Under the pieces are notes generated by a model, which had not been told where the DNA came from, did no database searches, and worked only from the letters and a program-made list of their open reading frames with translations. A program made the position numbers and the translations under genes. Below, piece by piece: positions 37,968-58,590 of a stretch of DNA of 64,000 bases (position 1 is the stretch's first letter; every line of letters starts with the position of its first letter). The stretch comes from Halosimplex rubrum (GTDB lineage: Archaea; Halobacteriota; Halobacteria; Halobacteriales; Haloarculaceae), in the NCBI RefSeq assembly GCF_013415885.1, contig NZ_CP058910.1, positions 3,100,001 through 3,164,000 on the forward strand, given 5' to 3'.

Positions 37968-37972
37968 ACGCC

Positions 37973-38284: not shown

Positions 38285-38337
38285 GATGGCGCGGTAGCGT
38301 CCCATCTCATTTGGCCTATCTGGTACCATCCAGTTCA

Positions 38338-38425: not shown

Positions 38426-38473
38426 GTAACTGAGGAGTCCGGTCCCATCGGGGCGTGACCTGTCGTAGGAAAT

Positions 38474-38498: not shown

Positions 38499-38519
38499 CG
38501 GGCTTCTGTGGAGAAACCC

Positions 38520-38666: not shown

Positions 38667-38668
38667 CG

Positions 38669-39022
38669 ATGAACGGGATTGCAACGGTCACCGCGACACC
38701 GGACCAGGTGTTCGAGGGCTACGCGGTCGGCTCCGGTGGGAAAGCTGCCTGTACCGGATGTCAGCGTACGGTCCGCGACGGCGACCCGGTCGGGATCTAC
38801 GCCCACCAGACCAGTGACGCCGCGCGATGGGACATTGCCCGCCTGTTCTGCGTCGATTGTCGGGAGACGTCGATTCAACACCCGACGACCGGCGCGACCG
38901 AGGTCGTCCTCAACGCCCGCTTGGGCGTCACGTCGGATGCTGCGACCCAATCCGCGCGACTGACGCTGCGCGACATCGAGACGATGCAGCTCTCCCCGCC
39001 CGAAGATGGGGGTGAACCCTGA
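38669..39022 (+). CDS. Zinc-finger protein of the HRAMP-like operon
   Basis: 117 aa from ATG 38669. C28-x2-C31 (ACTGCQ) and C61-x2-C64 (FCVDCR) enclose a beta-rich segment with VGIYAHQTSD, probably one C4 zinc site. The tail is helical. It may bind nucleic acid or be an adaptor to the complex. It resembles small haloarchaeal plasmid proteins, so a passenger role is possible. The next gene starts directly after its stop. Confidence 0.6.
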   Translation: MNGIATVTATPDQVFEGYAVGSGGKAACTGCQRTVRDGDPVGIYAHQTSDAARWDIARLFCVDCRETSIQHPTTGATEVVLNARLGVTSDAATQSARLTLRDIETMQLSPPEDGGEP

Positions 39023-39310
39023 ATGGACGACGCCGAGAAGTGGCGTGAAGTCGGGCGCAAGGCCGTCGGGATGGAACTCGAAGACGCCCGGTACGACGTC
39101 GAGTCGGCGTTGTACGCCATCACCGTGGACACGATGTTCCGGGGTGGCGATCCGACGGCCGACCAGGTCAAGGAGGCCCGGATGGCGCTGAACCTTGCCC
39201 ACCGGATTCTCGAAGAGTACGTCGCCCCCGCCGCTGGCTGTGAGCCGTGGGGCGACCCCGTCCCGGACATGCCCTACGGCCGGGCGAAGGAAGTGTACCA
39301 TCTCGAATGA
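39023..39310 (+). CDS. Small helical protein of the HRAMP-like operon
   Basis: 95 aa, mainly helical: WREVGRKAVGMELEDARYDV, YAITVDTMFRGGDPTADQVK and MALNLAHRILEEYVAPAAG. The size and helical content are similar to small subunits (Cas11-like) of class 1 effectors; no motif proves this. Zero spacing to the zinc-finger gene and 19 bp to the Cas7-like gene. Confidence 0.55.
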   Translation: MDDAEKWREVGRKAVGMELEDARYDVESALYAITVDTMFRGGDPTADQVKEARMALNLAHRILEEYVAPAAGCEPWGDPVPDMPYGRAKEVYHLE

Positions 39311-39329
39311 CAACTGAAGAAATCAAATA

Positions 39330-40190
39330 ATGACAGAAATCGACATCGACCGCGACGTGTTCGTGCGAATCCGTACCGACCTGCTGGTGGTCGGGGACAG
39401 CATCATGACCGACAGACACCACGCCTCGAACGGCAACTACGAGGACAACGACCCGCAGAACCAGATCGGCGGGATCATCCCGGCGTTCAGCCTCTCGGGA
39501 TGGCTTCGCCACGGGATGGAGAAGGTCGTCCAGGAACGTGACGGTACGGCCTGCCACCCCGGCGAGGCCAACGCGAACTTCCGGAAGGACGGCGTCTACA
39601 ACCGCGACCTCGACGCCGGCTACCACGAGAAGGGCGTGTGCCTCGAAGATGATGACGACGACGGGTGCGTGATTCTCGACCTCTTCGGCGGCTTCGGGAA
39701 TCGCCCCGGGAAGTTCATGCGCCGCCCGATTCAGTTCTCGCCGGTCCGCTCCAGCGTGGACTACACGCGCGGACAGGCCGAAGGCCACTACCGCCGCATC
39801 AACCGGAACGTCGTCTCCCGGAATGAGGAAGACAACCGAGAGCCGCTCCGGAACGCCGAACTGGACGCCGTCGGGAACCTCGACGGCTGCTGGCACCTCT
39901 CCTTCCGGGAGACCAAGCCCGAGTTCGTCGCGCTGCTCGCCGAGGCCATCGACTTCCTCGATGAGCATCAGACCGACTTCATGCACCAGCTCGGCGGGGC
40001 TCGGAACTTCGGCGGCGGGATCGTGGACTGCGACCTCGTGAACCCACTCTACAACGAGACCGAACTCCGCCGCGTCTTCGACCGCGGGAAGGGCAACACG
40101 AACAAAATGGACGACAAAGACGAGAAGTGGGAGACCGAGTACCTGCCGGAGTTCCAGGCGGCGCTCGCAGAGCGCGTGGAGGAAGTATGA
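39330..40190 (+). CDS. Cas7-like RAMP protein (HRAMP-type backbone subunit)
   Basis: 286 aa. RAMP hallmarks in order: RIRTDLLVVGDSIM (first strand), IIPAFSLSGWLRHG (49-62, the loop seen in Csm3/Cmr4/Csf2-type Cas7), ILDLFGGFGNRPGKFMRRPI (115-134, the LFG block), and LGGARNFGGGIVDCDLV (221-237, glycine-rich loop). Cas7 proteins coat guide RNA as a helical filament. No CRISPR array or Cas10/Cas8 gene is near, which matches the haloarchaeal HRAMP systems rather than type III. Its stop overlaps the next ATG by 4 bp. Confidence 0.78.
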   Translation: MTEIDIDRDVFVRIRTDLLVVGDSIMTDRHHASNGNYEDNDPQNQIGGIIPAFSLSGWLRHGMEKVVQERDGTACHPGEANANFRKDGVYNRDLDAGYHEKGVCLEDDDDDGCVILDLFGGFGNRPGKFMRRPIQFSPVRSSVDYTRGQAEGHYRRINRNVVSRNEEDNREPLRNAELDAVGNLDGCWHLSFRETKPEFVALLAEAIDFLDEHQTDFMHQLGGARNFGGGIVDCDLVNPLYNETELRRVFDRGKGNTNKMDDKDEKWETEYLPEFQAALAERVEEV

Positions 40191-40927
40191 GCGACGTGAT
40201 GCTCACCGCCTTCCGGCACGACGTCCACAAGTTCACCGGTGAGAGCCACGAGGACGCTCGTGAGGAGTTCGCCGGTGTTCCCGTGAACCAGCCGGTGCCC
40301 GAGGGCGCGGACGGCGATGCGGCGGCGCTCTCGCGGCCTCAGCAGAAGCAGGAGCAGACCGTCCCGACCCACGACGACCACTACCGACTCTCGCTGCTGA
40401 CCGGCGAGACCGCCTACGACCCCGGAGAGTTCTCCCGGGCGACCATCGAGAGCGAGGTAGCGGACCTCATCGGCATCGAGGACGCACAGACGGCCCACGA
40501 GCGGTGGCTCACAAGCGACGTGGCCGCCGCGTTCAACGAGTCAGTCTACCACCCGTACACGAGCCTGAAGTACCACACGCTGCTCGTGGCGGCGCTGCTG
40601 GACAACTACCGCGCCGGGAACGAGTTCGCCGACCTTCGGCTCATCGTGGACCCGGCGGGCGAGATCGCTCCGTTCCGCACCGTCTTCGATGGCGAACGGT
40701 TCGCGCTCCGCATCGGCGTCGAGGCGGACGGGTGTCCCTCTGCTCGCCTCGGGAGCCGTCCGTGGCGGTCGTGGGCGTCGGCGTGGAACCGCCTGACGGC
40801 GCACCCGCTCGATACCGGCCACGACAAGTACGACATGACGCTCGATGCGAACCTGCGACGGACGCAGTCCTGGAGCACGGCGCTCCAGTACATCGAGGAC
40901 TACGCCGAGTGGAGGCCCGACCGATGA
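40187..40927 (+). CDS. Unknown protein of the HRAMP-like operon
   Basis: 246 aa from ATG 40187, overlapping the Cas7-like stop (ATGA). It begins VMLTAFRHDVHKFTGESHED, has a helix-rich middle (YHPYTSLKYHTLLVAALLDN) and beta strands (FADLRLIVDPAGEIAPFRTV). It lies between the Cas7- and Cas5-like genes, where HRAMP loci carry a conserved uncharacterised protein. No HD, HNH or PD-(D/E)XK nuclease motif is seen. It may be a large-subunit substitute. Confidence 0.62.
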   Translation: MSDVMLTAFRHDVHKFTGESHEDAREEFAGVPVNQPVPEGADGDAAALSRPQQKQEQTVPTHDDHYRLSLLTGETAYDPGEFSRATIESEVADLIGIEDAQTAHERWLTSDVAAAFNESVYHPYTSLKYHTLLVAALLDNYRAGNEFADLRLIVDPAGEIAPFRTVFDGERFALRIGVEADGCPSARLGSRPWRSWASAWNRLTAHPLDTGHDKYDMTLDANLRRTQSWSTALQYIEDYAEWRPDR

Positions 40928-41829
40928 CGGCGATTCAGCAAGTCCTGTGGGAGCTGCGAATGGACTACATTGGTCACCCGTACTACGTCAGCGGGAACGC
41001 CATCCTGCACGCTCTCGGTCAGCACCTCGACCCCGAGACGCACGCGGCGGTGTCGGCCAGTCACGGCGTCTTCGTTCCCGGGCAGTTCGGGACGTTCCCC
41101 GAGGAACACAGTCAGTCGGGCATCCGCCCGTACCTCGGGAGCGGTCTCCCCGACGTTGAGGCCTACGACGACCTCTTCCTCCAGCGGGAGGCGATGCACC
41201 CGTGGTTGCTGGATACCCGCGCTCGGGACGCGCTGAACACGCACGATCTCCGCGTCCAGGGCGGCCACCCGGCGCTCGCTCACGAGACCATCATGGGCCG
41301 CCGGGAAGACCAGCGGAAACAGCAGCAGACCACGAAGTGGTACGTCCACGCCTACCTCCACGCTGATGACCCGGCGGTGCTCCCGCTCGGCGAGGATGTG
41401 CTGGAGGGCCTCCAGTTCGGCGGCAAGCGCAACTACGGCTACGGCGAGGTTCAGCTGAAGGACACGCAGATGGTTGACCTCGGTGAACTGGACTACTCGC
41501 GGCTCGAAGGCGCGGAGACGTATCTCATCGAACTCGTGACGCCGTTCGTCCTGGCGTCGGAGTATCCAGAGGCGAACGACCGCACTATCCCGTGGTGGTG
41601 GGCCGAGAACCGGGACAATCTCCGGCTGCGCCAGGAGAAGATACTGGAGCAGCGCGAGGTGTTCAAGCTGGAGACGGTCGATCACGGACAGGTCGTGAAG
41701 TACCTCGGCGACCGCCCGGTGGAGACCGCGAAGAACGGCCTCCAGCGGGTCGGCTCTCACTCCCGATACGGCTTCGGAGAACTGCGGCTGAAGCCCCTCG
41801 GCGAACAGTATCAGGAATCAGAGAAGTAA
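40924..41829 (+). CDS. Cas5-like RAMP protein with two glycine-rich loops
   Basis: 301 aa from ATG 40924, overlapping the upstream stop by 4 bp. Two RAMP modules are suggested: LQFGGKRNYGYGEVQL (163-178) ends the first and GLQRVGSHSRYGFGELRL (272-289) the second. Both are the G-rich loops found at the end of RAMP ferredoxin-like domains in Cas5 and Cas6. As a Cas5 it would cap the guide-RNA 5' end; as a Cas6 it would process RNA. A catalytic His is not evident near the loops. Last gene before the right end of the element. Confidence 0.75.
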   Translation: MTAIQQVLWELRMDYIGHPYYVSGNAILHALGQHLDPETHAAVSASHGVFVPGQFGTFPEEHSQSGIRPYLGSGLPDVEAYDDLFLQREAMHPWLLDTRARDALNTHDLRVQGGHPALAHETIMGRREDQRKQQQTTKWYVHAYLHADDPAVLPLGEDVLEGLQFGGKRNYGYGEVQLKDTQMVDLGELDYSRLEGAETYLIELVTPFVLASEYPEANDRTIPWWWAENRDNLRLRQEKILEQREVFKLETVDHGQVVKYLGDRPVETAKNGLQRVGSHSRYGFGELRLKPLGEQYQESEK

Positions 41830-41896
41830 CGACTAACTGGCCACCAATGCAACACCAGAATCAGGATGAATCGGGCGAGAAAAATACAGCGGTGCG

Positions 41897-41928
41897 GCTG
41901 AATAAAGAAATCGTATTACCAACAACTG
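41897..41928 (-). repeat. Right terminal inverted repeat
   Basis: Inward reading starts CAGTTGTTG and ends TATTCAGC, pairing with the left end at 35460-35491 over 32 positions with 10 mismatches. It is followed by the TTAC target duplication. Confidence 0.8.
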
Positions 41929-42575
41929 TTACGGGCGGTCCCCGAGGACCGGTCGGCGATACGCTCCAGGTACGACCGGTCGACGCCGCCGCGGAGGCCT
42001 TTCCGGACGCGGGGTTCGAGGATGTCCGCCAGCTCCGCGGGGGCGTACGTCGAGAGCTGTAGGCCCGCGCCGGTCAGCCGGTGCTGGACGCGGTGGTCGT
42101 CGAGATCCTGGCGGAAGTGCTCGGGGTCGTGGACGATGGGCACCACCCCGACCCAGGACACGTCGGTCAGCCGCCGCAGGACATCCTCGTTGAGGTCGTC
42201 GGCTTCGTCGAGGACGACCACAGTCGGGTCGGTGACTCGCTCGCGCAGCGCGAGGCACACGTCTTCGAGCGGCTCCCGGTCGCCGGGGTCGCCGCCGAGC
42301 TGCCGCAGCGCCTCCCGGACGATCTCGGCGACCGTCTCGCCCATCGTCCGGATATGCGCCCAGTTGGCGTCGGTCTCGTCCTGCAGATCCGAGACGGTGT
42401 GGCGGACCAGTGCCGTCTTCCCGACGCCGTGGGGACCGTACAGCAGGACATCGTCGGGGCGCTCGCCGCGCAACGCCGGCTCGAACGCACGTGCGAGGGC
42501 GTTCTGCTCGGCGTCCCGATGGAGTAACCGATCGGGGACGTACTCGCCCTCGAAAACGTGCGGGTTACTGATCAC
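41929..42575 (-). pseudogene. orc1: N-terminal AAA+ part of provirus Orc1/Cdc6, interrupted by the transposon
   Basis: The likely start is GTG 42575 (VISNPHVFEGEYVPDRLLHR), preceded by a TTTTTGT box about 28 bp upstream. Walker A is GPHGVGKT (47-54), Walker B VVVLDEADDL (119-128), and the sensor region runs to SSGTAR, where the element cuts in. Readthrough adds only NSCW before a stop. Rejoined with 35047-35459 the protein would be about 351 aa, a normal Orc1/Cdc6. The provirus replication initiator is therefore broken unless another copy exists. Confidence 0.87.
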
Positions 42576-42600
42576 GTCTCCCGACTGACGGGAGATGGGT

Positions 42601-42720
42601 ACAAAAAGGTTCGATCCGTTTCCGGCAGGGTTGTGATATGTTTTTGTGGACCCATCACCCACCCTATTGAGTCAGTGACAAGAAACGGGTCCACCAACCC
42701 TTTCACCCACCCGGGGGATA
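42601..42720. other. Candidate provirus replication origin beside orc1
   Basis: Upstream of orc1, GTGGACCC (42646-42653) and GGGTCCAC (42687-42694) form an inverted pair around an AT-richer core. CACCCACCC blocks follow each arm (42657-42664 approximately and 42704-42712). Initiator genes commonly sit next to their origin. The repeats are not identical to the chromosomal haloarchaeal ORB as I remember it. Confidence 0.4.
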
Positions 42721-42733
42721 CGGCAGGCGTGCG

Positions 42734-43051
42734 ATGTCTCGGGGATACGAGTGGTTGGTCAAGTGGTACACAGCTGATTCAGTCTGGCGACGCGCCGTCG
42801 CGCTGGTTCTGAAGCTCGGAATCGAGGCAGGGACCGTCGCCATCGCGACGGCTATCGCTCCGGGTTTGTTCTGGATGCTCTCGCGCGCGAACTCAACACC
42901 CACCCTCGATGCAGGGGCTATCCTCGGCATTTGGGGGACAGCAATCGCGCTGGTGTTCAATCAAGCGTACTGTTTTTCGACGAGCGAACGGGATCGGTCG
43001 ATCACCGAGTCCGAGGACGACCAAGAAGCTCCAGCAAGTCGGACTCGGTGA
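42734..43051 (+). CDS. Two-span membrane protein of the provirus
   Basis: 105 aa. Two hydrophobic segments (ALVLKLGIEAGTVAIATAIA and LGIWGTAIALVFNQAYCF) and a charged C-terminus. It overlaps the convergent membrane-protein gene by 50 bp. Function unknown; holin-like or exclusion roles are possible. Confidence 0.5.
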   Translation: MSRGYEWLVKWYTADSVWRRAVALVLKLGIEAGTVAIATAIAPGLFWMLSRANSTPTLDAGAILGIWGTAIALVFNQAYCFSTSERDRSITESEDDQEAPASRTR

Positions 43052-43568
43052 GGAGCGTCCCGCGGAACCCTTCGGGCACCAGTGCGTCCTCTCCAAGAAG
43101 CCGGCCGCCGACCTCGACCACCACCATCGAGGGGGAGAGGTACCAGGCGTACTCCCCCAGCTTGATGTCGGCGGCAGGGACAGCCATCGCTACGATCACG
43201 GCGACCGTTTGCCCGGCAGAGGCGGCAAGCAAACCGGCAACGACCCCCAGCAACATGGCAACGTTCGCCTGGACGGTAAGCGCGGCGAGTAAGTACTTTC
43301 CGGACATGCCGGTCCCGGAGACATCACGCTGGTAGGGGTACCCCTCATTGAAGATCCGGCGCGCCATGAACATGCCCGCGTGGAGGCTTGCACCGGCGAT
43401 CCCAAGATAGAGATACATCGCGGCCTCGGCACCGACGCCCAGGCCGACGACGATCTGGATCGGGAGTGTCGTCAGGAACAATGTCGAGCCGGCGTCGGTG
43501 CTCCGCGTGACCGTCATGACGATCATTTCACCGACCCGTCGGGGGATGCCTGGCTGTTCGGTCGCCAC
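43002..43568 (-). CDS. Multi-span membrane protein of the provirus
   Basis: 188 aa with about four or five hydrophobic segments (LFLTTLPIQIVVGLGVGAEA, AMYLYLGIAGASLHAGMFMA, VAMLLGVVAGLLAASAGQTV and others) and a charged tail. Could act in superinfection exclusion; no family is recognised. Confidence 0.55.
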   Translation of the reverse strand: MATEQPGIPRRVGEMIVMTVTRSTDAGSTLFLTTLPIQIVVGLGVGAEAAMYLYLGIAGASLHAGMFMARRIFNEGYPYQRDVSGTGMSGKYLLAALTVQANVAMLLGVVAGLLAASAGQTVAVIVAMAVPAADIKLGEYAWYLSPSMVVVEVGGRLLGEDALVPEGFRGTLLTESDLLELLGRPRTR

Positions 43569-43620
43569 TATGTATCGTGTACGTGCCGCACCGCAAAAAG
43601 TACTTTCGCAGCCCCGTCGC

Positions 43621-43842
43621 TCAGTGCTGGCGCCAGTACCAGCGCGAGCGGGCGTGTTTCTGCGGGCAGTCCCAGCGGTGACAGATGTGGTCGGAGTTCC
43701 TCGCCGACCGCCAGCATGAGAGGCAAGTTACGACGCCGGTCGGCTCGCCCTTCTTGAACCCGTCGACGTGGACGGGCGACCGCGAGCGCATCAGCTGGAA
43801 GTGCGTATCGGGATCCGAGAACGACGCTCGGCGCTCACTCAC
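43621..43842 (-). CDS. Small zinc-finger protein of the provirus
   Basis: 73 aa. CLSCWRSARNSDHICHRWDC can coordinate zinc with Cys and His residues, followed by a basic tail (PQKHARSRWYWRQH). Last gene of the second small-gene operon. Possibly nucleic-acid binding. Confidence 0.55.
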   Translation of the reverse strand: MSERRASFSDPDTHFQLMRSRSPVHVDGFKKGEPTGVVTCLSCWRSARNSDHICHRWDCPQKHARSRWYWRQH

Positions 43843-43951
43843 TTGTGGTCACCTCCACCCACACGCCCTTGCGCGTCTGGACGACCAGCTCGGAGTCGCT
43901 CCGCGGGATCGGCACGCGAAAGAACTCGAAGGACATCGTGACCAGGCTCAT
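43835..43951 (-). CDS. 38-aa provirus protein
   Basis: ATG 43951 (MSLVTMSFEFFRVPI), beta-rich, ends WVEVTTSE. It overlaps both neighbours (8 bp and 4 bp) in a tight leftward operon, the main reason to accept it. Confidence 0.45.
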   Translation of the reverse strand: MSLVTMSFEFFRVPIPRSDSELVVQTRKGVWVEVTTSE

Positions 43952-44205
43952 CGGTCGGCCGCCTCCGGCCCCGTAATCGTCTCGGCCGCCCCCGCGGCCG
44001 TGATCACGTCGACCACGTCGGTCGCCCCGGTGCCGATCTCCAGCTCGGCGTCGGCGACGATCTCGCGGCCGACCGGCCGCCACTTGTCGCCGTCGTACTC
44101 CTCGTCGTGCATCGTCCACCCGCCGGCGTCGCGGCGCTCCAGACGGATCCGGCGTCTGTTCGATGCCTCGTTGGTGAACGCCAGCGTGATGCCCTCCTCA
44201 GGCAT
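43948..44205 (-). CDS. Provirus hypothetical protein
   Basis: 85 aa from ATG 44205 (MPEEGITLAF). RRRIRLERRDAGGWTMHDEE then acidic helical tail. Overlaps the upstream gene by 8 bp. No function recognised. Confidence 0.5.
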   Translation of the reverse strand: MPEEGITLAFTNEASNRRRIRLERRDAGGWTMHDEEYDGDKWRPVGREIVADAELEIGTGATDVVDVITAAGAAETITGPEAADR

Positions 44206-44620
44206 CGTCGTCCTCCTCGCTGTGGAGCCGTGCGACCCGCTCCAGCCGAGACCGCGGGTAGGCGTAGGTCTGCAGGCGGCCGACATCGACGGTCGTCCGC
44301 TGCGGGAACACGGCCTCGACGACGTGGTCGTCGGCGGGGAACTCGGGGTTGACGTCGGCGACGGTCAGGTCGTCGTCGACCGCGACCTCGTCGGCGCGCT
44401 CGGCCGGCGTGCCGACGACGAGCATCGTCGCGGCCTCGTCGGGGTCGTCCTCCTGACGGTCCTGGACGTGGTCTCCGACGTGGAGCTGCGGAAGGTCGTC
44501 GGTATCGCCAGCCTCGTTGTTACCGCCATCCGGGAGCTCGATCCCCGGCGGGAGTCCCGGACCAGGGTCGGGTTGCGGTTTCTCGTCGGGTTGGCGGTCT
44601 TCCCACGGGGGTCGCGTCAT
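44198..44620 (-). CDS. Provirus hypothetical protein
   Basis: 140 aa from ATG 44620 (MTRPPWEDRQPDEKPQ). Pro/Asp-rich N-terminus, then VGDHVQDRQ and TMLVVGTPAERADEVAVDDD, a beta-rich small domain ending TYAYPRSRLERV. 4-bp overlap with the 45-aa gene upstream. Function unknown. Confidence 0.5.
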   Translation of the reverse strand: MTRPPWEDRQPDEKPQPDPGPGLPPGIELPDGGNNEAGDTDDLPQLHVGDHVQDRQEDDPDEAATMLVVGTPAERADEVAVDDDLTVADVNPEFPADDHVVEAVFPQRTTVDVGRLQTYAYPRSRLERVARLHSEEDDDA

Positions 44621-44754
44621 CGCGCGCCCCTCCCGTCGTCCGCCCGGGACCCGCCGCGCAGGTAGTCGAACGCGTCGACGCCGTCGGGGCCGTGGGACTG
44701 GACGACCAGCCCCTCCCAGATGCGCTGCTCGTCGGTGTCGGACCACTTACTCAT
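44617..44754 (-). CDS. 45-aa provirus protein
   Basis: ATG 44754, TGA 44617-44619. MSKWSDTDEQRIWEGLVVQS then a charged tail. Exact overlaps with both neighbours support translation. Function unknown. Confidence 0.5.
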   Translation of the reverse strand: MSKWSDTDEQRIWEGLVVQSHGPDGVDAFDYLRGGSRADDGRGAR

Positions 44755-45125
44755 CACGCATCACGCTCCAGAGTCGGGAGGTCGCGACCGCCACACTCGG
44801 GACAGCACCCGTCGACGGTCAGCCAGTCACCGGTGAACCCACAGTCCCGGCAGTCCCAGACGAACTCGTCGGTCGCCTGTACACCTGGCGCCCCGTCGGA
44901 CACCTCAGCCGCTTCGAGGACCTCCTCGATGTCGTCGAGGATGTCGTCGATACGCTGGCGGCAACGCTCGTCGCGCTCCAGCTCGGACTCCGCCCGGCCG
45001 GCAGCCTGGGCGTACTTCCCATCTTCGACGAGCGCGGCGACGTCTTGGTGGCCGCTCGCGATCGAGTCGAGTTTACTCCGGGCGCTGTCCAGCCGGCCGA
45101 GCGCGCGGGCGGTGGAGAGCTGCAT
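44754..45125 (-). CDS. Coiled-coil protein with C-terminal zinc ribbon
   Basis: 123 aa from ATG 45125 (MQLSTARALGRLDSARSKLD). A helix with heptads (AAGRAESELERDERCRQRID) leads to WDCRDCGFTGDWLTVDGCCP, a zinc ribbon with pairs CRDC and CPECG. It may bind DNA or RNA. Overlaps both neighbours by 1 bp. Confidence 0.55.
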   Translation of the reverse strand: MQLSTARALGRLDSARSKLDSIASGHQDVAALVEDGKYAQAAGRAESELERDERCRQRIDDILDDIEEVLEAAEVSDGAPGVQATDEFVWDCRDCGFTGDWLTVDGCCPECGGRDLPTLERDA

Positions 45126-45457
45126 CAGTCCGCCGCCTCCGTAGCGGCCTGCTGGCACTGGATGTCCGCGGCGCGGGCCCGGGCGGCCTGGTGTCGCTGC
45201 ATCGAGTCCAGCGAGTCGGTGTTGGTCCACCACTGGTCGATCCAGCCGCACTTGCTGGCGACGTAGTCGATCCAGTTGACGACGCGGTGCTGGGCCAGGT
45301 CTTCGACGTGGTCGACCTCGCCGTCGACCGTGACGATGATCCGGGCGCGGACGCGGTCGAACTGGTGGGCGCGGCCCTTGGCGTCGTAGCCGAAGACGCC
45401 GGCGCGGCTGATCTGTGCCTCGGTAACTTCTTGGGTGTCGGATTCGTGTTCGCTCAT
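45125..45457 (-). CDS. First gene of the second provirus operon
   Basis: 110 aa from ATG 45457 (MSEHESDTQEVTEAQ). FGYDAKGRAHQFDRVRARII and VNWIDYVASKCGWIDQWW are notable; the C-terminus is helical. A GATATA box on the minus strand near 45540 could drive the operon with a leader of some 50 nt. Function unknown. Confidence 0.5.
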   Translation of the reverse strand: MSEHESDTQEVTEAQISRAGVFGYDAKGRAHQFDRVRARIIVTVDGEVDHVEDLAQHRVVNWIDYVASKCGWIDQWWTNTDSLDSMQRHQAARARAADIQCQQAATEAAD

Positions 45458-45569
45458 GCTTCCTCGTAGGGAAGCGCGGTCGGGCGTGTTGTCGCACGCC
45501 CCGGCCAACTTCTGACCGGCGTCCCGCGCTTCTTACCAGTATATCTATTCGCCACCCACTTATAGTTAA

Positions 45570-45590
45570 CGTATCGTAGTCTACTATACG
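45570..45590. promoter_or_regulatory. 21-bp palindrome in the divergent promoter before the 170-aa regulator
   Basis: CGTATCGTAGTCTACTATACG is an inverted repeat with mismatches only at two symmetric positions and the centre. It lies about 48 bp before the regulator ATG at 45639, between divergent genes, in an AT-richer island. Likely operator of the winged-helix regulator. Confidence 0.5.
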
Positions 45591-45638
45591 GTGCAACGTA
45601 CCCAAAGCTACATTACGTATCCGACACACTGTTAGTAC

Positions 45639-46151
45639 ATGGCGGTGCAACCAACGGGCGTGCTCACGCCCGACGAACTGAACGACACGGACGGCCGCGT
45701 CCTCGACGTGCTCCACGACGGCCGAGTTACGCCGCAGTACGTGGCCGGCGAACTGGATGTCTCACGGACGTACGCGAGCGAGCGCCTCAAGCGGCTGGTC
45801 GAACACAACCACGTCCGCAAGCTGGCGTCGGGGTTGTACGAACTCGCCGACGACCCGCGCGAGGAGGACAGCGCTGCCGCTGACGAGTCCGACCTCCGCG
45901 CCCGGCTGCAGGACGCGCTCGAAGCCCGGGACGACGCCCAGGCCCGGGCCGACCGGCTGGCCGACCGCGTCGCCGACCTCGAAGCACAGCTCGACGACGC
46001 TCGGGGCGGACAGGACACCGACACGGGCACGGTCGCCGAGGCCGCCGACGCACTCGCGCGTGGGCTGAATCGACTCCCTGACGACGCCCCGGGGCGGACG
46101 TCCCTGGAAGACGCGCGGGCGCTGCTGGAGGGGGCGGTCGGCGATGATTAG
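45639..46151 (+). CDS. Winged-helix regulator with coiled-coil dimerisation domain
   Basis: 170 aa. LNDTDGRVLDVLHDGRVTPQ and ELDVSRTYASERLKRLVEHN form a winged helix like that of the PhiH1 group. The centre (LRARLQDALEARDDAQARAD) is a coiled coil and the C-terminus a short acidic helix bundle. Divergent from the second leftward operon over a palindrome. Probably controls lysis-lysogeny or late genes. Confidence 0.72.
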   Translation: MAVQPTGVLTPDELNDTDGRVLDVLHDGRVTPQYVAGELDVSRTYASERLKRLVEHNHVRKLASGLYELADDPREEDSAAADESDLRARLQDALEARDDAQARADRLADRVADLEAQLDDARGGQDTDTGTVAEAADALARGLNRLPDDAPGRTSLEDARALLEGAVGDD

Positions 46152-46703: not shown

Positions 46704-48698
46704 TCAGACGGTCATGTTGAGTCGTGGAGCGATCTCGATGTTCCAATCGTAGATGCGGAGGGTCTGAGCGGTTGCTGACTTTGTTCGCGCCTCGGCGTTG
46801 AACAGATAGAGGTGACTCTGAGCGTCCGCTGATGTGGTTGAGTTATCCAGCGGCGGCACGTGCTCGTCGCACATCCACGCCCCGTTTTCGGTGTTGTGGT
46901 CGACCGATGCGGAGATGCGGTCCAGCGAGCGCGTCATCCGGATCTGATAGTGAGTCGGTCCACCCGTCGGATTGGGTAGCGTCGCAGCTCCCGTCTGGAA
47001 GTCAGTCCCGTCAGAGGCCCAGAGGTTCGTGTTGCCGCTATTGAAGTAGAGGCCGACGAAGGTCTGGCCGCCAGCAGCAGTGAATCCTCGTCCGATGTGG
47101 CCCGCGAAATCAGTCATGTTGTCGATCTCGCAGACGACATTGAGCACCATGTCCGCCCAGTCTACTCCCTCGGCGTTGGTGAGCGGCGCCGCCGACCGCT
47201 GCATCATCATAGCCGCTTTGTTGCCCGACGCGGAGTTGTCGACATCGAGCTGGTAGTGGGGGCGCCCCGTCTGCTGGATCGTCACAGCGCTGTTGGACCC
47301 GACCTCAGTGGTCTGGTAGCCATCCAGCGACGTGATCGCGTCCTGGTATCCCCAACTCAGCGACTCCCACGTCTCCTCGACGGTCGGCTCGATACCGCCG
47401 TTTGACTGCCAATCCGTCCGATAATCGGTATCATCGCCCGCGTAGGACTGCTGCATCCACCAGTGTCCGTCCTGGTAGATGTGCAGTTTGCCGTACGGCG
47501 TGACAGACCCATCGAAGTCGGTGCCGGTAATCCCGACACCATGCGGGAAATGCTGGTAGAAATACGGCGTCTGCCCCCACCGCTGTACCAACGAGTGATC
47601 GAACGACGGCGAGCGTCCGAAGTTACTCAGATGGTGGCTGTGGCCGAACGTAACCAATTCGATGTTGTCGTGCTGGTCGATGAGATGCCCGTATTTCGCC
47701 TGGTCGTAGAGTCCGATGTTGTCGTACCCGCTGTGCGTGCCTGGTGGGATCGGGGTGTGGGTAAAGACGTAGACGGGTTTGTTGGTACTCTCCAGCTCGT
47801 TTTTGAACCAGTCGAACTGCCCCGATGGGACGCTCGAGTCGAGGTTGGCTTCGGACCCGTCGTTGAACCCCGTGTTCAGGACGATGATCTTTCCGTGGTG
47901 TTTGTCGATACTGTAGTAGGTGTCCGAATCCTCGCTGATGCCCCACGGACCGTATGACCACTGGTAGTCCCACGTCCCCGCGTTGGCGAACTCGTGGTTG
48001 CCCCAGACCATGTGGTAGGGGATCGAGTCGTTGAGTTGGCCCTCCAGGTAGTCCCTGAAGTCGGTGATGCGCTGCTGAGAGTTGCTTTGGCTGCTGTTGT
48101 CTTCGGTCGTGATGTCCCCACCCAGAATCACCAGATCGGCACCGCCGTCACCCCACGAATTCATGTCCGCTGCGAACTCGTCGATTTTCGCCTCGAGGGC
48201 GGTCTGGGAGACAAACGAGTTATTGCTGGAGTTGCCCCAGTGAGAGTCGGTCCAATACCCAACTTTCAGCGGCTTCGTGTTGAGTTGCTCTGCACTGATC
48301 GACGGGTCAGAGTTCTGCTCGGCGACCGCGCCCGCGCCGGCGTCGACGATCGCGATGAGTAGCGACGGCGTCGACGGTTCCGAGCCGTCCGCGTCGATGT
48401 GGTAGTTGAGCGACTCATCCACATCCGACGCACCGGCGTCGAACGTCAAGAACACGTGGTTCGTGCCCGACGAGTCCTGCAGTGGGAGGCCCGCGCGCGG
48501 GTCAGGGAATACATCCCACGCCCGATCGGCATCACGAACGACCGCATGGCCGCTGCCGATGTCGATCGTCCCATCGCCGTTGGGCGTGACGGACATGCCT
48601 CGCTCAACGTAGTCGGTCTGGTTGGACTTGGCCGCTCGCTGGGCCAGGTTCTGTTCGCTCAGCTGGTCGCCGTCGTTGAAGAGTACCTTATCACTCAT
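46704..48698 (-). CDS. Tail fibre protein with calcineurin-like metallophosphoesterase domain
   Basis: 664 aa. The first 130 residues resemble a virion attachment domain (NDGDQLSEQNLAQRAAKSNQ). A complete metallophosphoesterase set follows: D151 and H153 in YWTDSHWG, D195 in LGGDITTED, N234-H235 in VWGNHEF, H314 in FTHTP and H353/H355 in FGHSHH. The C-terminal 200 residues are a beta-rich lectin-like domain (WSYLYLFN-type strands, TRSLDRISASVD). It is probably the receptor-binding protein, cleaving phosphate esters on the host surface or in its glycans. Last gene of the late operon; lower GC than neighbours suggests exchange. Confidence 0.75.
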   Translation of the reverse strand: MSDKVLFNDGDQLSEQNLAQRAAKSNQTDYVERGMSVTPNGDGTIDIGSGHAVVRDADRAWDVFPDPRAGLPLQDSSGTNHVFLTFDAGASDVDESLNYHIDADGSEPSTPSLLIAIVDAGAGAVAEQNSDPSISAEQLNTKPLKVGYWTDSHWGNSSNNSFVSQTALEAKIDEFAADMNSWGDGGADLVILGGDITTEDNSSQSNSQQRITDFRDYLEGQLNDSIPYHMVWGNHEFANAGTWDYQWSYGPWGISEDSDTYYSIDKHHGKIIVLNTGFNDGSEANLDSSVPSGQFDWFKNELESTNKPVYVFTHTPIPPGTHSGYDNIGLYDQAKYGHLIDQHDNIELVTFGHSHHLSNFGRSPSFDHSLVQRWGQTPYFYQHFPHGVGITGTDFDGSVTPYGKLHIYQDGHWWMQQSYAGDDTDYRTDWQSNGGIEPTVEETWESLSWGYQDAITSLDGYQTTEVGSNSAVTIQQTGRPHYQLDVDNSASGNKAAMMMQRSAAPLTNAEGVDWADMVLNVVCEIDNMTDFAGHIGRGFTAAGGQTFVGLYFNSGNTNLWASDGTDFQTGAATLPNPTGGPTHYQIRMTRSLDRISASVDHNTENGAWMCDEHVPPLDNSTTSADAQSHLYLFNAEARTKSATAQTLRIYDWNIEIAPRLNMTV

Positions 48699-48998: not shown

Positions 48999-51584
48999 TT
49001 ACGACCGCCGGACGGTGCTCCCCAGAAGCGCGCGGATCTGACCAACACGCTCGGCGGCCGAGTCCCGGGAGCCAAGACGGAGGCGGACGCCCTCCGGCGT
49101 CTCTTCCGTGTCGCGCGGCTCCAGGGCGTCGTAGGGCAGCTGGCTCAAGTCGATCGCCTCGACGACCGACCAGTCCGACGCGTCCGGCGGGAGGTCGACC
49201 GTCGCTTCATACAGCGGCTCGGAGAGGTCCTGCGCGAGGATGCGGGCCACCTGACCGCAGGCGCGTTCGGTTGGCAGGTTCGGAAGGTCGCGGACGATCT
49301 CGCGGGGGTTGCTCCCAGCACCGTCGACCGTGTGGCTGCTCTCTGGTTTGTACCAGTAGTCGACCGACAGCGCCTGCCCGTCAGCGATGGTCCCGCTGGC
49401 GAGCGTCCGGATGCGTCCGTCGACCGCGTCAAGTTCGTAATCGGTCCGGTAGGAGTACTCCGTGCTGGAGTTCGCGTCGGCGACGGATTCCTGGCCGAGT
49501 AGTAGGTTCGTGTCGGGGAGGTCGACCCACGTCCCGTGGTCGGCGGTCACTTGCTCGTCTCGCGTGATCTGTTTCGAGCCCTTGATCGTCACCTTCTCGA
49601 CGGCGTTCTCGACGGTCTTCGTCGCCGAGAAGTCGAGTACGGGCGCATCCCGGTCGGCGGTCCGCTGGCCGGGCTCCGCCCACTCGAACGAGAGGTTGCC
49701 CTCGGCGTCCGTGTCGATGGCCCAAAAGGCGTCTCCGTACTGCTGGGCGATCTCGTTGAGGACGGTCTTGGCCGACCCGTCGTACGTCTGGTCGACCAGT
49801 AGCGGGATATCCTCCAGCTCGGCGTCGAGCGTCCAGCTGTCCAGTACCGGCCGCTCGAACCCCTGGGTCGGTGTGGTGTCCGTCCGAGAGCCGTACCCTC
49901 GGAGCCCGACCCGCCAGCGGAGGGCCTCGCCGATATCGGCGAAGTCCGTGCTGAACGTGGAGACGCCGGCACTGCTGTCCGTATATGAGACGCCCCGATC
50001 GTTCGACAGCCCGAGGCGCTCGATCCCGGACGCGTCGTCGACAGCGACCGAGATCTCCCCGCCGGTGACTGCCCGCACTTGACTCTCCCCGTCGAAGGCC
50101 TGGATCGGTATCGATCCGCCGTTCCCGACAGGGTAGTCCGCTGGGTATTTCAGGGCGTCGTTGGCGTTCGTCGACTCGGAGAACGCGTTAACATCGTGAT
50201 ATCGCTGGTCGTAGAGCGTGACGGCGTCGAGGTCCATCTCGGCGTTCTGGAGCGAGTCGTAGTCGGTCCCGACGACGACTGCCCCCTTCATCCCGTCCGA
50301 GGAGTTATCGGTGCTGCCGTGAGTTTCGCAGTAGTAGCGATAGACGCCCTCGTCGTCGAACGTCACCGGACCGTAGGTCACGCTGGTCGACGTGATCGGC
50401 ACGCCCGAGTCAAATTCGCCGGTCTCCTCAACGACGTTGTGCGACTCCGTGTCGTCGTCCCACTGCCAGGTGACATCTGTCCCGGGGTCGACCCAGATGG
50501 CGGGCTCGCCGCTCGTCGGGTGCTCGAAGGTCCGGCTGCCGTTGTTCCCCACGTCGATCTGGACACTGGCGTTCCCGCGCAGGTCTTCGGTCGTCCCGTC
50601 GTAGTTCGGTGTGTTGTTAAACCAGTCTCCGTAGTCGGGCGAGCCGCTGGCCGTCTGCGTACACTCGACGCGGACGCTGTGGGTCCCCGGAGCGAGATCG
50701 TCGTTCCACCCATCCACCCCGATCCAGCCGAGGCCAGCCTGGACCTGCGCGTAGGCTCCGTACGGGCTGATCGACTCGCCGTCGACAGAGACTGTAATTT
50801 CGGGGAGTTCTTGTGGCGACCCCTGGTTGGGGATGTTCCCGAGGTCGTTCGGCGCTCGGAAGCGGATCGCGACAGCGCCCTGGTCAGCCGGGATGGCGTG
50901 CTCCAGCTCCACGTCGAACTCGACATATGACCCCGCAGTTTCGAGAGTGATGATCTCGCCATTCGAAGCGCCATCCAACGACCCGCGGAAGTCGACCTGG
51001 TTGTCGTTGATGTTCTCCGCTTCCCGGAGGTGCGATGTCCGAGCGAGTGTCGATCCTTCGCCGTCCGAAGCGGGAGCCAGCCCAGATGCGGCGATGATCG
51101 GGGACGTTGGGTCCGACGGGTCAAACTGCTCGGCCCAGTCGGTTTCCGAGTCTCCCGTGCTGATCGTCAGCGTCTCGCTCGTCGTTTCTGGGATGTCGAT
51201 GTTGGCCGTGAGATCGGTGTAGGTTTCGATGATCTGCTCGGCGGCCTCGTAGACCGGGATCACGTCGAACTGTTCGGTGACGCGCACGTCGAGGTCGCGC
51301 CCGCCGATGCCGACGAGCGTGGTCGTGCTCCCGGGCCCGTCCTCGGGGGCGACGAACTCCTCGATGGGCTGGGGGCGGCCGTCCTTCCAGACGCGCATCG
51401 GCGCCCCCTCGAACGATTCGAGCCGCCACTGCTCGCCGGCTTCGACCGGGATCTCGCCTCGCTTGTAGTCGTACGGTGCCGGCGCGATGCGCGCCTGGTC
51501 ATCGTAGACCGTCGGCGTCCAGGTGTAGTCGCTGTCGGGGTGGTCGACCTCGACGTACCAGCCGGTCGCGGGGACGTTCGACAT
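48999..51584 (-). CDS. Tail-tip protein with inserted halocyanin-like blue-copper domain
   Basis: 861 aa. The N-terminal 200 residues and the part after about 500 are the tail hub-like portion (VLNEIAQQYGDAFWAIDTDA, TKTVENAVEKVTIKGSK), similar to phage baseplate or tail-spike hubs. Between them lie a carbohydrate-binding-like beta domain and, at 340-440, a cupredoxin: AIWVDPGTDVTWQW, H382 in ESHNVV, C419 and H422 in YRYYCETHG, and M432 in GMKGAVVVG. These are the four type-1 copper ligands in the correct order and spacing. The function on a virion is unknown: stability, redox or binding to the host surface are options. Confidence 0.78.
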   Translation of the reverse strand: MSNVPATGWYVEVDHPDSDYTWTPTVYDDQARIAPAPYDYKRGEIPVEAGEQWRLESFEGAPMRVWKDGRPQPIEEFVAPEDGPGSTTTLVGIGGRDLDVRVTEQFDVIPVYEAAEQIIETYTDLTANIDIPETTSETLTISTGDSETDWAEQFDPSDPTSPIIAASGLAPASDGEGSTLARTSHLREAENINDNQVDFRGSLDGASNGEIITLETAGSYVEFDVELEHAIPADQGAVAIRFRAPNDLGNIPNQGSPQELPEITVSVDGESISPYGAYAQVQAGLGWIGVDGWNDDLAPGTHSVRVECTQTASGSPDYGDWFNNTPNYDGTTEDLRGNASVQIDVGNNGSRTFEHPTSGEPAIWVDPGTDVTWQWDDDTESHNVVEETGEFDSGVPITSTSVTYGPVTFDDEGVYRYYCETHGSTDNSSDGMKGAVVVGTDYDSLQNAEMDLDAVTLYDQRYHDVNAFSESTNANDALKYPADYPVGNGGSIPIQAFDGESQVRAVTGGEISVAVDDASGIERLGLSNDRGVSYTDSSAGVSTFSTDFADIGEALRWRVGLRGYGSRTDTTPTQGFERPVLDSWTLDAELEDIPLLVDQTYDGSAKTVLNEIAQQYGDAFWAIDTDAEGNLSFEWAEPGQRTADRDAPVLDFSATKTVENAVEKVTIKGSKQITRDEQVTADHGTWVDLPDTNLLLGQESVADANSSTEYSYRTDYELDAVDGRIRTLASGTIADGQALSVDYWYKPESSHTVDGAGSNPREIVRDLPNLPTERACGQVARILAQDLSEPLYEATVDLPPDASDWSVVEAIDLSQLPYDALEPRDTEETPEGVRLRLGSRDSAAERVGQIRALLGSTVRRS

Positions 51585-52799
51585 CTATTCGTTCACCCGT
51601 GTTCGCTCGACGAGCTCGGCGCCGGCCGCGGGGTCCGACCCCTGCGTACTCGCGATGGCGTCGACGCGGTCGACCAGCCCCTGCGGTGGGCTCGATGCGT
51701 TCGGCGGGACCATCCAGAGGGCGTCGTCGTAGCCGCGCTTGAGCGAGCAGTTGAGGTTCTGCGTCGTCAGCGCTGACGTGCTGGTGTCCCGGAACTCGAC
51801 CTGCAGGTCGATGCGGGCGAGTCCGATGTGCGTCACGTCGACGTCGAAGAGCCGCCAGTCACTGGTGAGGTCCAGCTGGACGCGGTCGTAGTGGGCGTCG
51901 GCGTCGTTCCACCGGTAGGCCTCGATGCGGCCGCGATTCTCGTCGAACCGAAGCCGTAGTCGACCCGTCTCAGCTACCGGCGCCCCGACGAAGTCGTGAC
52001 CCGTGGAGTAGACCCTGCCCCAGCGGACTGCATCTGTCCCCCCACCACCGACCGTCGCGTCACCGACCGTCGCCGTCCCGACTTCGCTGCCGCCCCCCTC
52101 GTCTACGACGACAGTCTTCGACCGACCGTTGTCGTCCCAGAGATGGACATCTGCTTGGTATTCGTCCGTGTAGTCGAGCGTGTAGATCAACGTCGGTTGC
52201 GAGAACGACGGTTCGGTCGCGTCGTAGATCTCGAAGTCCGTGCGCTCGCCGGCGACCGTCCGTTGCACGGTCGCGTCCTCGATGGCGCCGGAGCCGCCCC
52301 GGTCGTCGAACCAGCGGACCTTCTCGGCGCCGGCGTGGAGCCCGATCTCGGCGTCGCCTCCATCGCCGAACGGGTTGTCGACCGCGTCCGGCCGGGCCGC
52401 GACCGCCCGCCAGTGTGAGCCGCGTGTCCCCTCTTCCGTGAGTCGGATGTCGAGGCGGTGGACGATGTCGCTCGACGCGATAGGGCGGGCGGACTGGTCG
52501 TCGTCGATGACGTAGTAGCCGTCCCGCTGCGGATCCGATCCGCTCGGGGACGCGTACGGTACCGCGCCGATAGTCGACGCGCCGGCGAGCTCTTCGACTG
52601 CTGTCGCCGTCAGGGATGCGTACCCTCCGACGACCATGTACTGGAAACCCTGCTCACCGGCCTCTGGAGCGACCGTCTCGACCGCGGCGGTATCGTCGCC
52701 GAGCGCGCCCGCGGTCGCCATTCGCCGGCGCTTTGATGTCCGCGAGTCGTTCTGGACGAGCTCACCGATACGGAGTGCGTGGAGTTGTCGGAGTGTCAT
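51585..52799 (-). CDS. Tail protein
   Basis: 404 aa, beta-rich (VRWFDDRGGSGAIEDATVQR, TLIYTLDYTDEYQADVHLWD, WRLFDVDVTHIGLARIDLQV). Placed between two tail-tip genes in the late operon with 0- and 4-bp junctions. It corresponds in position to distal tail or baseplate components. No specific family. Confidence 0.6.
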   Translation of the reverse strand: MTLRQLHALRIGELVQNDSRTSKRRRMATAGALGDDTAAVETVAPEAGEQGFQYMVVGGYASLTATAVEELAGASTIGAVPYASPSGSDPQRDGYYVIDDDQSARPIASSDIVHRLDIRLTEEGTRGSHWRAVAARPDAVDNPFGDGGDAEIGLHAGAEKVRWFDDRGGSGAIEDATVQRTVAGERTDFEIYDATEPSFSQPTLIYTLDYTDEYQADVHLWDDNGRSKTVVVDEGGGSEVGTATVGDATVGGGGTDAVRWGRVYSTGHDFVGAPVAETGRLRLRFDENRGRIEAYRWNDADAHYDRVQLDLTSDWRLFDVDVTHIGLARIDLQVEFRDTSTSALTTQNLNCSLKRGYDDALWMVPPNASSPPQGLVDRVDAIASTQGSDPAAGAELVERTRVNE

Positions 52800-55487: not shown

Positions 55488-56432
55488 TCAGGCCACCGTC
55501 ACCGCGTCCTCGCCGCCGACGTTCCACTGGACGTTCTCGGTCGTGTCTGTGTCGCCGGCGATGAGGTCCGACCACTCGTACGTGGCCGGCGTGACCGTCT
55601 GCAGGTTGTACGTCGAGATGACCGTCCCGTTGTTCTTGATCGTCGCCGTCGCCGCGACGCCGTCGAGGCGGTCCTGCGTGCTCGTCGCGTCGGCGCCGCC
55701 GAGGGCCCGCTCCAACCGGTTCGGTCCCGAGTAGATGCCTGTCGACTCCAGCGACGCCTCGGGCTGGGCGATAACGGCGTCGGCGGGCGTCGGGTTGCCG
55801 TCGCGTTGGAACCGCGCGATGTTCGAGATGGAGAGCGACGACGACTGGAGCATCGGGATCGAGGTCGTGTCGATCGAGAGGTCGAAGTCCTGGGCGGCGG
55901 CGTGGCTACCCTCGCTCGCCTGGGTCACGCTCGATGGCGTGATGGACGTGTTCGTGCTTTCAGCGCCGTAGATGCCCGAAAGCGTGTACCGGACCTTACC
56001 GTCCTGCGTGTAGTCGAACGGGGTAAAGTCGACGGGGATGAATCCCTCCAGGACACGTTCGGTCGTGCCGTCGAGGTAGTCGATCCCGGCGTAGATCTTC
56101 GCGGACTGCGGCCGGCCGGCGACGATCGCCTTGTTGCCCGAGCCGTCGGTGTCGTTGAAGACGATGTCCTCAACCTTCGGGAAGACGTCGGCGTTGATGA
56201 CCGCCTCGACACCGAACGCACCCTCGAAGTTGTCCTTCACGCTCTCGACTGACCAGACGCTGTCGGGCTCGTGCATCCGCTGGAGCATGTTGTCCAGCGA
56301 GACATCCTGCTCGGTGGGGTCGCGGCCGAACGCGTAGTAGTCGGCGTTCCCGTCGCTGTCGCCGTCGGTGACGCTCCCGAGGAACGTATCCTCGAAGCCG
56401 AAAGCCAGACTCGCCGCGCCGGCGCCGGTCAT
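55488..56432 (-). CDS. Major tail tube protein
   Basis: 314 aa, beta-rich, no cysteine. GFEDTFLGSVTDGDSDGNAD at the start, VEDIVFNDTDGSGNKAIVAG and VLEGFIPVDFTPFDYTQDGK in the middle, ending TTENVQWNVGGEDAVTVA. Position upstream of chaperone and tape measure and an excellent Shine-Dalgarno sequence indicate the abundant tail tube subunit. No sheath gene adjoins, so the tail is probably non-contractile. Confidence 0.68.
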   Translation of the reverse strand: MTGAGAASLAFGFEDTFLGSVTDGDSDGNADYYAFGRDPTEQDVSLDNMLQRMHEPDSVWSVESVKDNFEGAFGVEAVINADVFPKVEDIVFNDTDGSGNKAIVAGRPQSAKIYAGIDYLDGTTERVLEGFIPVDFTPFDYTQDGKVRYTLSGIYGAESTNTSITPSSVTQASEGSHAAAQDFDLSIDTTSIPMLQSSSLSISNIARFQRDGNPTPADAVIAQPEASLESTGIYSGPNRLERALGGADATSTQDRLDGVAATATIKNNGTVISTYNLQTVTPATYEWSDLIAGDTDTTENVQWNVGGEDAVTVA

Positions 56433-56592: not shown

Positions 56593-58590
56593 TCACTCGG
56601 GACTCAGTGACGGGATACCCGTCGACTGACGGATCGCGGCTTGCTGTTCCAGATAATCTGTCCAAGTTATAACCTCGATTTGGTCGTCCTTGCCGTCGAG
56701 ATACGACATCATCGACGCGAAGTCAGATTGTGTCGTGCTTGGTGGATGGATGTTAAAGACGGTCGTATAGTTGTACGTAATCGCCCTGTCGACTATGCTC
56801 TCGAACTCAGAGACCGCCGGGTCCGACGTAGACCGATGGACGAAGGGGTTAATCGTGTTCGGCGGGATGGTTTTGAGATTGCCCGATCCGACAGTGCGGC
56901 CGAGCATATGGTAGTCTGACGCAACGTCGATGACCGTCTCATCATAGTTGCCATAGGGGTAGTGGATAAACCTCGCCCCGTCGTGGAAGCCATTGTTTAG
57001 GAGCCAGTCGCGGCTCTTGCGGATGTCCTCCCGCAGGTCGCTATCGGACAGCGTTGTGAGGTCGTTGTGTCCCCATCCCTCGGAGCACATATCCCAGTCT
57101 TTAGACTGCAACTCGCGCATTTGCGAGAGGTCCATCCGACCTGAGTCCCCGATCTCGCCAACGATATGCGAGATGCAACCGCGGAAGCCGTACTTATCCA
57201 TCTCGGGGTAAAAATCCGTGTAGTTGCCAATGTCCCCGTCGTCAAATGTCAGGATAACCTGCGGGGTCGCGGGTCGCTCCCATATCTGCAAGTGGTCAAC
57301 CCTCATATCAATATCATCATCAGTGAGGATGATAGAGAGCGCGCCAATGTTGTCGATAGATGGGCTGCCGCTAATATTGTCGATCCCAACGTTGAGTCGG
57401 AGCCACCCCATCTCAGGAGAGATCTTTTGCTGACACCAAAAGTAATTGAAAATGTCGTTGTAGTCTCTGAGGAGGATGGCCGCCCTCGTCGTCCCAGCTC
57501 CATCGGGGATTTTGATTGTCGCGGAGAGGTTGATGTTGGTCCAGTCCTGCCCCGACCCGAGCGTGTCGGTCATGTCAAGGCGCATCTCTGCACTCTCGCC
57601 CGTGTTCGGCTCAACGAGCGCAGACTGCGGCTCCCGTAGAAATTCGCTCGTGTCTGCTGTGAGACTCCCTTTTGGGTTGGACCAGTTAGAGAGGTCTGAG
57701 AGATTGTCGTAGACACGGCCAACAGATTGATAGCGAGATGCTGACCGTCGCTGATGCTCTAAAATGCTGGCGCGTTTGGTGACTGTGTCCTCTGCATTGA
57801 CCACATTCGCATCGGCCGTATCGGCGTAGACATCAGACCGGTTCGTGTCCGTCCCGATCTGCACGCCGGTGATCGGCCCCGACAGCGAGATCGTCAGCGC
57901 GTCGTTGCCGTCGTCGTAGTTCCAGGCCAGATTCGAGCTTGAGCTCAGCAGCGCCGCGACCGCATCCTCAACCTCCTCCTCGTTGAGCGCCGACGTGTCG
58001 ACGGTCAGCTGGTCGTTGGCGTCGTTGTACGTGGTCGAGACGTTCGTCCCACCAGTCACCAGCCCGGCGACCCAGTCCTCGATGGTCTCTTCCTGGACAG
58101 CGATGCTGTCCGCACCATCGTCGTGGACCAGCCCAGCCCCGGCCATCCCGCCGGCGAGATCGCGGACCTGCTCGTCGGTCCGGTGGTCTCCTGTGGAGAC
58201 GTTCGCGAGGTTGTCATGGCTGATGGCCGACTCGTCGACAGCGATCGTCAGCTGGTCGTTGTCGTCATCGTAGCTGGCGGTGAGCGCGTTCCCTGCCGTC
58301 ACGAGGGCGTTGACCGTGTCCTCAACCTCCTCCTCGTCGAGTGCCGTTGTGTCGAGGGTGAGTGTGTCGTTGCCGTCGTCGTACGTCCAGGACAGCTTGT
58401 CGCCGCTGCCGACCAGCGCCGCGACGATGTCCTTGACGGCCTCGTCAGTGGGACGAGCGTCAAGCAGGTCGTCGATGTCCTCGAACGCCGCGCCGTAGAG
58501 CTCGGCCCACGTCGGCGAGCCAGAGTCGTAGCCCTGCGCGGGGTACTCGATGCCGTGCGAGTCGGTTGTGTTGGTATTGTCGTTTGCCAT
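56593..58590 (-). CDS. Tail fibre protein with NodB-type polysaccharide deacetylase domain
   Basis: 665 aa. The N-terminal region repeats a fibre module several times (EEVEDTVNALV, YDDDNDQLTIAVD, YDDGNDALTISL). A jelly-roll-like domain (about 290-435) is followed by a deacetylase domain: motif 1 VILTFDDGD (D450, D451), motif 2 SEGWGHNDL (H508; Glu504 where the first metal His is expected) and motif 3 RFIHYPYGNYD. It probably trims acetyl groups of the host glycan coat during entry. GC falls in the C-terminal half, and the gene interrupts the order of tail genes, both suggesting acquisition. Confidence 0.77.
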   Translation of the reverse strand: MANDNTNTTDSHGIEYPAQGYDSGSPTWAELYGAAFEDIDDLLDARPTDEAVKDIVAALVGSGDKLSWTYDDGNDTLTLDTTALDEEEVEDTVNALVTAGNALTASYDDDNDQLTIAVDESAISHDNLANVSTGDHRTDEQVRDLAGGMAGAGLVHDDGADSIAVQEETIEDWVAGLVTGGTNVSTTYNDANDQLTVDTSALNEEEVEDAVAALLSSSSNLAWNYDDGNDALTISLSGPITGVQIGTDTNRSDVYADTADANVVNAEDTVTKRASILEHQRRSASRYQSVGRVYDNLSDLSNWSNPKGSLTADTSEFLREPQSALVEPNTGESAEMRLDMTDTLGSGQDWTNINLSATIKIPDGAGTTRAAILLRDYNDIFNYFWCQQKISPEMGWLRLNVGIDNISGSPSIDNIGALSIILTDDDIDMRVDHLQIWERPATPQVILTFDDGDIGNYTDFYPEMDKYGFRGCISHIVGEIGDSGRMDLSQMRELQSKDWDMCSEGWGHNDLTTLSDSDLREDIRKSRDWLLNNGFHDGARFIHYPYGNYDETVIDVASDYHMLGRTVGSGNLKTIPPNTINPFVHRSTSDPAVSEFESIVDRAITYNYTTVFNIHPPSTTQSDFASMMSYLDGKDDQIEVITWTDYLEQQAAIRQSTGIPSLSPE

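Follow-up and report, generated by a model that had tools for sequence, protein, structure and literature searches.

The baseplate hub of Haloferax tailed virus 1 (HFTV1) is a trimer with globular domains pointing downward; it is located at the tip, bears the tail fibres, and is shed upon ejection (PMC12494034). ORF24 of HRTV-DL1, a homologue of the hub described here, was identified by mass spectrometry in purified virions (PMC10544981). Metal sites in phage tail tips have been described as iron sites, as in gp37 of T4, for which, together with the Ferrojan Horse idea, a role in host contact has been proposed (PMC11705849). Halocyanin is the one-electron carrier of haloarchaea and is linked with the terminal oxidases (PMC8305020).

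The locus analysed here lies in a window of 64,000 nucleotides and is a provirus of a haloarchaeon of the family Haloarculaceae. It encodes a protein of 861 residues that is very probably a baseplate hub of the HFTV1 gp44 type and that features, in addition, an insert which is, on sequence evidence, almost certainly a halocyanin domain:

48999-51584, minus strand: very probable baseplate hub of 861 residues (PHROG 18315; like HFTV1 gp44 and HRTV-DL1 ORF24) with the inserted domain, by open reading frame, profile, and fold
50208-50237, minus strand: hub β-strand just after the insert, residues 450-459, pairing in the model with the strand of residues 300-310
50259-50648, minus strand: inserted halocyanin (type-1 copper, cupredoxin) domain, residues ~313-442, with the TIGR03102 match at 318-438
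50289-50291, minus strand: Met432, axial ligand by alignment, with five more residues in the loop from His422 than cellular halocyanins have
50319-50321, minus strand: His422, second His ligand by alignment
50328-50330, minus strand: Cys419, copper thiolate ligand by alignment (YYCETH)
50439-50441, minus strand: His382, first copper ligand by alignment (SHNVV motif)
50655-50687, minus strand: hub β-strand just before the insert, residues 300-310, from the model
51585-52799, minus strand: tail-module gene upstream of the hub and conserved among haloviruses, by match to PHROG 18406
55488-56432, minus strand: minor tail protein, by match to PHROG 18409

The hub lies on the same strand as the genes for the minor tail protein, the head protease, the portal, and both terminase subunits, which places it in the tail-gene cluster of the provirus. 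The head protease, like the minor tail protein, is found within the window; the portal, the large and small terminase, an HNH nuclease, a methyltransferase, and an MCM helicase are located just beyond it. In a further protein of the head/tail cluster, of 665 residues (56593-58590, minus strand), residues 442-560 match a polysaccharide deacetylase domain (PF01522, E = 4e-16) and a stretch matches the phage structural-protein family PHROG 697; this protein may be a virion enzyme that acts on surface glycans of the host. Another enzyme-like domain of the tail module, a metallophosphoesterase (PF00149, E = 2.3e-12), occurs in a protein of 664 residues downstream of the hub (46704-48698, minus strand). 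The nearest integrase is a tyrosine recombinase (27808-28353, plus strand; PF00589, E = 3.8e-13) about 20 kb from the tail genes, and a DDE transposase of 620 residues (35507-37369, minus strand; PF01609, E = 2.4e-11) lies between host-like DNA and the provirus. Beside the provirus, two genes (39330-41829, plus strand) show weak matches to type III CRISPR RAMP proteins (Csm3-like and Cmr3-like); no CRISPR array was found near them at positions 30000-46000.

The assignment of the carrier is based on fold and profile. The model of the full-length protein has a mean pLDDT of 75, with most hub blocks at 80 to 95 and the insert unfolded at a pLDDT of ~30. As judged by Foldseek, its best PDB match is chain BD of 9H4P (9h4p_BD), from the tail of HFTV1, at E = 1.4e-19, followed by the tail-associated lysin (Tal) and gp27-type hubs of other phages and, lower down, by carbohydrate-binding modules. 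The same HFTV1 chain, which bears the name 'Baseplate hub', is matched by a profile built from 25 homologues (E = 2.7e-47), so that what the earlier note had called a virion tail protein is given a more precise name, an HFTV1 gp44-like baseplate hub. The match to PHROG 18315 spans residues 446-860. Homologues are present in the isolated haloviruses BJ1, Humcor1, HJTV-4, and CGphi46 and in a Halorubrum lacusprofundi virus—annotated there as hypothetical or FN3-domain proteins—and, in addition, in IMG/VR contigs and many haloarchaeal proviruses and plasmids. FN3 domains are found in 14 of the 25 homologous hubs; many relatives have an N-terminal FN3 arm, which the 861-residue hub lacks. By analogy with HFTV1, any virion of this provirus would probably carry about three copies of the inserted domain exposed at the tail tip.

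The insert matches TIGR03102, the NCBIfam halocyanin domain, at residues 318-438 with E = 2.8e-21, covering model positions 1-114 of 115. The score of 75.7 bits lies below the NCBI naming cut-off of 93.8, so the domain is a divergent member of the halocyanins. PF00127, the plastocyanin/azurin family, is matched with E = 4.5e-6 and 27.4 bits, above the gathering score of 21.2, and is the sole Pfam domain of the protein. Identity to cellular halocyanin domains amounts to 44-57% for the best of many matches in the haloarchaeal genomes searched. The blue-copper, halocyanin-like character put forward in the earlier note is thereby borne out, and a chance motif or an Ig-like lookalike of the cupredoxin fold is ruled out by the TIGR03102 match and the identity to halocyanins. 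The extent of the domain given there, 50265-50567, does not stand since its start falls ~23 residues too late: the leader segment DYGDWFNNTPNYDGTTEDLRGN aligns with the N terminus of mature cellular halocyanins and belongs to the domain, which therefore begins near residue 313-317 and spans approximately 50259-50648. An export signal or membrane anchor is absent, the N terminus of the protein being the start of the hub (MSNVPATGWYVEVDHP); the cellular relatives begin with twin-Arg-type export signals. The two copies of a direct 9-bp repeat, CGTAGTCGG, lie close to the two ends of the domain (50258-50266 and 50630-50638); the repeat is taken as chance because both copies encode the DY residues typical of halocyanin ends. 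A model of the domain alone is weak (pLDDT 53, pTM 0.50) and was built with an alignment of cyanophage plastocyanins; its Foldseek matches, at E-values up to 1e-3, are to cupredoxins, among them plastocyanins and CuA domains, in agreement with the sequence but not independently of this plastocyanin alignment.

The stretch between the near-invariant residues G300 and D453 comprises 19-29 residues in the alignment of 57 distinct hub homologues versus 154 here, and no insertion of at least 40 residues relative to the 861-residue hub was found anywhere in these homologues. As judged by the model, the insert sits in the turn of a predicted β-hairpin formed by the strands 300-310 and 450-459, and owing to this position the fold of the hub need not be disturbed. 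A scan of the viral loci with a halocyanin (cupredoxin) profile, including hubs on haloarchaeal plasmids, gave no second match, and there is little doubt that the insertion is unique among the known relatives of the hub. Outside the family, the domain as a query found no second viral example in the annotated phage collection, and a scan of IMG/VR with a halocyanin alignment, a weak scan that used two peptide patterns only, found none either. Among the collected phage sequences, the only cupredoxins found are plastocyanins of cyanophages (401 records), i.e. the metabolic gene petE, which agrees with the previous statement that no cupredoxin is known from other virus tails. Two apparent exceptions were discarded. 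A plasmid match over residues 318-561 is an ordinary halocyanin gene followed by a run-on into the next gene, which encodes a radical SAM protein. The petE of S-SCSM1, labelled 'tail tip protein Tal' in RefSeq (NC_070962.1, 127683-128006), is an annotation slip, as the record's own note gives plastocyanin and the gene stands two genes away from PTOX; the label could mislead searches for tail cupredoxins. Searches of an open-access library yielded nothing relevant on a halocyanin or cupredoxin in a virus tail, baseplate, or virion protein.

Acquisition of the domain from haloarchaeal halocyanins is supported by the sequence comparison. The earlier note had proposed capture from a halocyanin of the host; the haloarchaeal halocyanin origin stands with the 44-57% identity. 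However, a recent capture from the present host is rejected, the host's own halocyanins being no closer than others with a best match of 46% identity, and the viral domain occupying a long branch (0.95) without a supported neighbour in the tree. Conservation was assessed on the viral domain and 28 non-redundant cellular domains by a leave-one-out count of lost conserved positions. Of 29 positions conserved in halocyanins, 3 are lost in the viral domain, similar to cellular domains of about its divergence; a cellular domain with visibly missing ligands lost 9 of 30. Among the highly conserved positions, the viral domain kept 30 of 32, all four ligands included. As far as the sequence tells, the domain bears no sign of decay, which in a single viral sequence fits either selection in the virus or constraint in a donor outside the sample. 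One cellular tandem halocyanin provides a natural example of a cupredoxin whose copper site is broken: its second domain (from approximately residue 249) has neither the second His nor the Met ligand (YYCRTDRPNNGRGAIVV).

His382, Cys419, His422, and Met432 are present, after a check of the coordinates, exactly where they had been placed before, and they occur in order in alignment columns that are 98-100% conserved among cellular halocyanins. The type-1 spacing previously ascribed to them holds for the canonical Cys-x2-His part but not for the remainder: the viral domain carries Cys-x2-His-x9-Met in place of the Cys-x2-His-x4-Met of halocyanins and plastocyanins. In a sample of 60 cellular halocyanin domains, from which the window's own x9 copy was left out, His-x4-Met is found in 58 (four of them with an extra, earlier Met), x5 in one, and x9 in none, and in one domain the site is missing. 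The ligand loop, HGSTDNSSDGM compared with the cellular PHxxxGM, is longer and polar, and the conserved Pro between Cys and His is missing (T421). Both changes are predicted to alter the surface that is normally touched by electron-transfer partners. The length of the ligand loop differs among blue copper proteins, and the x9 spacing therefore does not rule out copper; binding of copper is the favoured, if not firm, expectation.

The most likely role of the domain, with a probability of roughly 0.45, is that of a docking or adhesion module at the host membrane, judged from the sequence and from the analogy with HFTV1. The provirus has taken up a whole mature halocyanin domain into the β-hairpin turn of its baseplate hub, and, if the hub is trimeric as in HFTV1, the tail tip would display approximately three copies pointing outward. 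Since virions are assembled in the cytoplasm, copper would be loaded only after their release. The tip could then settle on the membrane or on a cell-surface partner beneath the S-layer by its likeness to the membrane halocyanins of the host, small blue copper proteins that shuttle electrons at its surface; halocyanin being the host's one-electron carrier linked with the terminal oxidases, a halocyanin at the tip could engage the membrane partners of the host protein. Copper would probably be bound and would mainly hold the domain in the recognised shape, electron transfer not being needed for this.

Instead of docking, the cupredoxin β-sandwich may be a passive decoration, acting as a spacer or binding weakly and non-specifically in the way of Ig-like and FN3 domains, with a copper site that is inherited and unused. 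Such domains are frequent in tail proteins, and this habit together with the changed ligand loop ranks decoration second after docking, although we regard it as somewhat unlikely. The FN3 domains in 14 of the 25 homologous hubs, the lack of the N-terminal FN3 arm in this one, the placement of the insert in a loop, and the drift of the ligand loop are in its favour; the retention of the four ligands and of 30 of 32 highly conserved positions at an overall identity of 44-57%, and the absence of excess loss relative to cellular domains of similar divergence, speak against it. A redox-active tip, in which the copper-loaded domain, once in contact, would swap electrons with the respiratory chain of the host and thereby trigger or time ejection, would make use of the kept ligands, of the function of halocyanin as host electron carrier (PMC8305020), and of a hub that sits at the tip and is released upon ejection (PMC12494034). 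However, the longer polar loop and the loss of Pro at 421, which change the surface for docking of partners, are two points that run against a standard electron-transfer role, and such a tip is without precedent, so that a redox step in entry, though possible, has less support than docking or decoration and is judged improbable. The wider proposition that about three working blue-copper carriers at the tip dock or exchange electrons with the membrane redox chain of the host during entry is, as a whole, unlikely; were it true, the virus would have copied an electron carrier and would use the respiratory machinery to recognise its host.

More improbable still is a lure or store for metal, with the tip taking copper from the brine for stability or offering it to an uptake system of the host. 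Iron-bearing tail fibres and the Ferrojan Horse hypothesis provide a parallel (PMC11705849), but a buried type-1 site makes a poor lure, some three atoms per virion would be at stake, and no host copper receptor has been identified. That the insertion is an artefact of a chimeric assembly or belongs to a dead gene of a decaying provirus could be suspected from its single occurrence, yet this is very hard to reconcile with a single-contig genome of 100% estimated completeness, with two in-frame junctions and a reading frame that is open throughout, with a third-position GC of 0.85 in the N-terminal part, 0.88 in the insert, and 0.87 in the C-terminal part, and with protease, portal, and terminase genes that are all open frames. 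Docking by likeness to a host halocyanin stays the preferred reading. For archaeal tailed viruses, the receptors and the triggers of entry are, to our knowledge, almost unknown, and a host electron-carrier domain at a known position of the hub, in a family with a solved structure, offers a direct test of entry by imitation of a surface redox protein.

Compared with the systems described so far, each part of this protein is of a known kind and the combination, seen in one genome, is new; as far as the searches made reach, it is the first cupredoxin in a virion structural protein. The hub belongs to the same family as HFTV1 gp44 (PDB 9H4P, 9H7V) and the further PHROG 18315 hubs (BJ1 ORF67, Humcor1, HJTV-4, CGphi46, HRTV-DL1 ORF24) by sequence and predicted fold. 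However, the relatives examined carry a hairpin of 19-29 residues without a halocyanin insert, and many of them feature the N-terminal FN3 arm that this hub lacks. Cellular halocyanins (TIGR03102/PF00127) share with the viral domain 44-57% of the sequence, the order of the ligands, the leader PDYGxWF...NYDG, and Cys-x2-His. The viral domain differs from them in its location inside a tail hub without signal peptide or lipid anchor, in His-x9-Met instead of His-x4-Met, in the loss of Pro before the second His, and in its polar loop. The cyanophage plastocyanin PetE (PHROG 515) belongs to the same cupredoxin superfamily and is likewise encoded by a tailed virus, but as a free-standing photosynthesis gene of ~107 residues beside other metabolic genes and not as a part of the virion. 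The T4 gp37-type tips are comparable in that a metal site is placed at the end of the tail; they hold iron in short HxH motifs, whereas here a whole captured blue-copper domain with a putative copper site is present, by which the notion of metal-bearing tail tips would come to cover copper besides iron.
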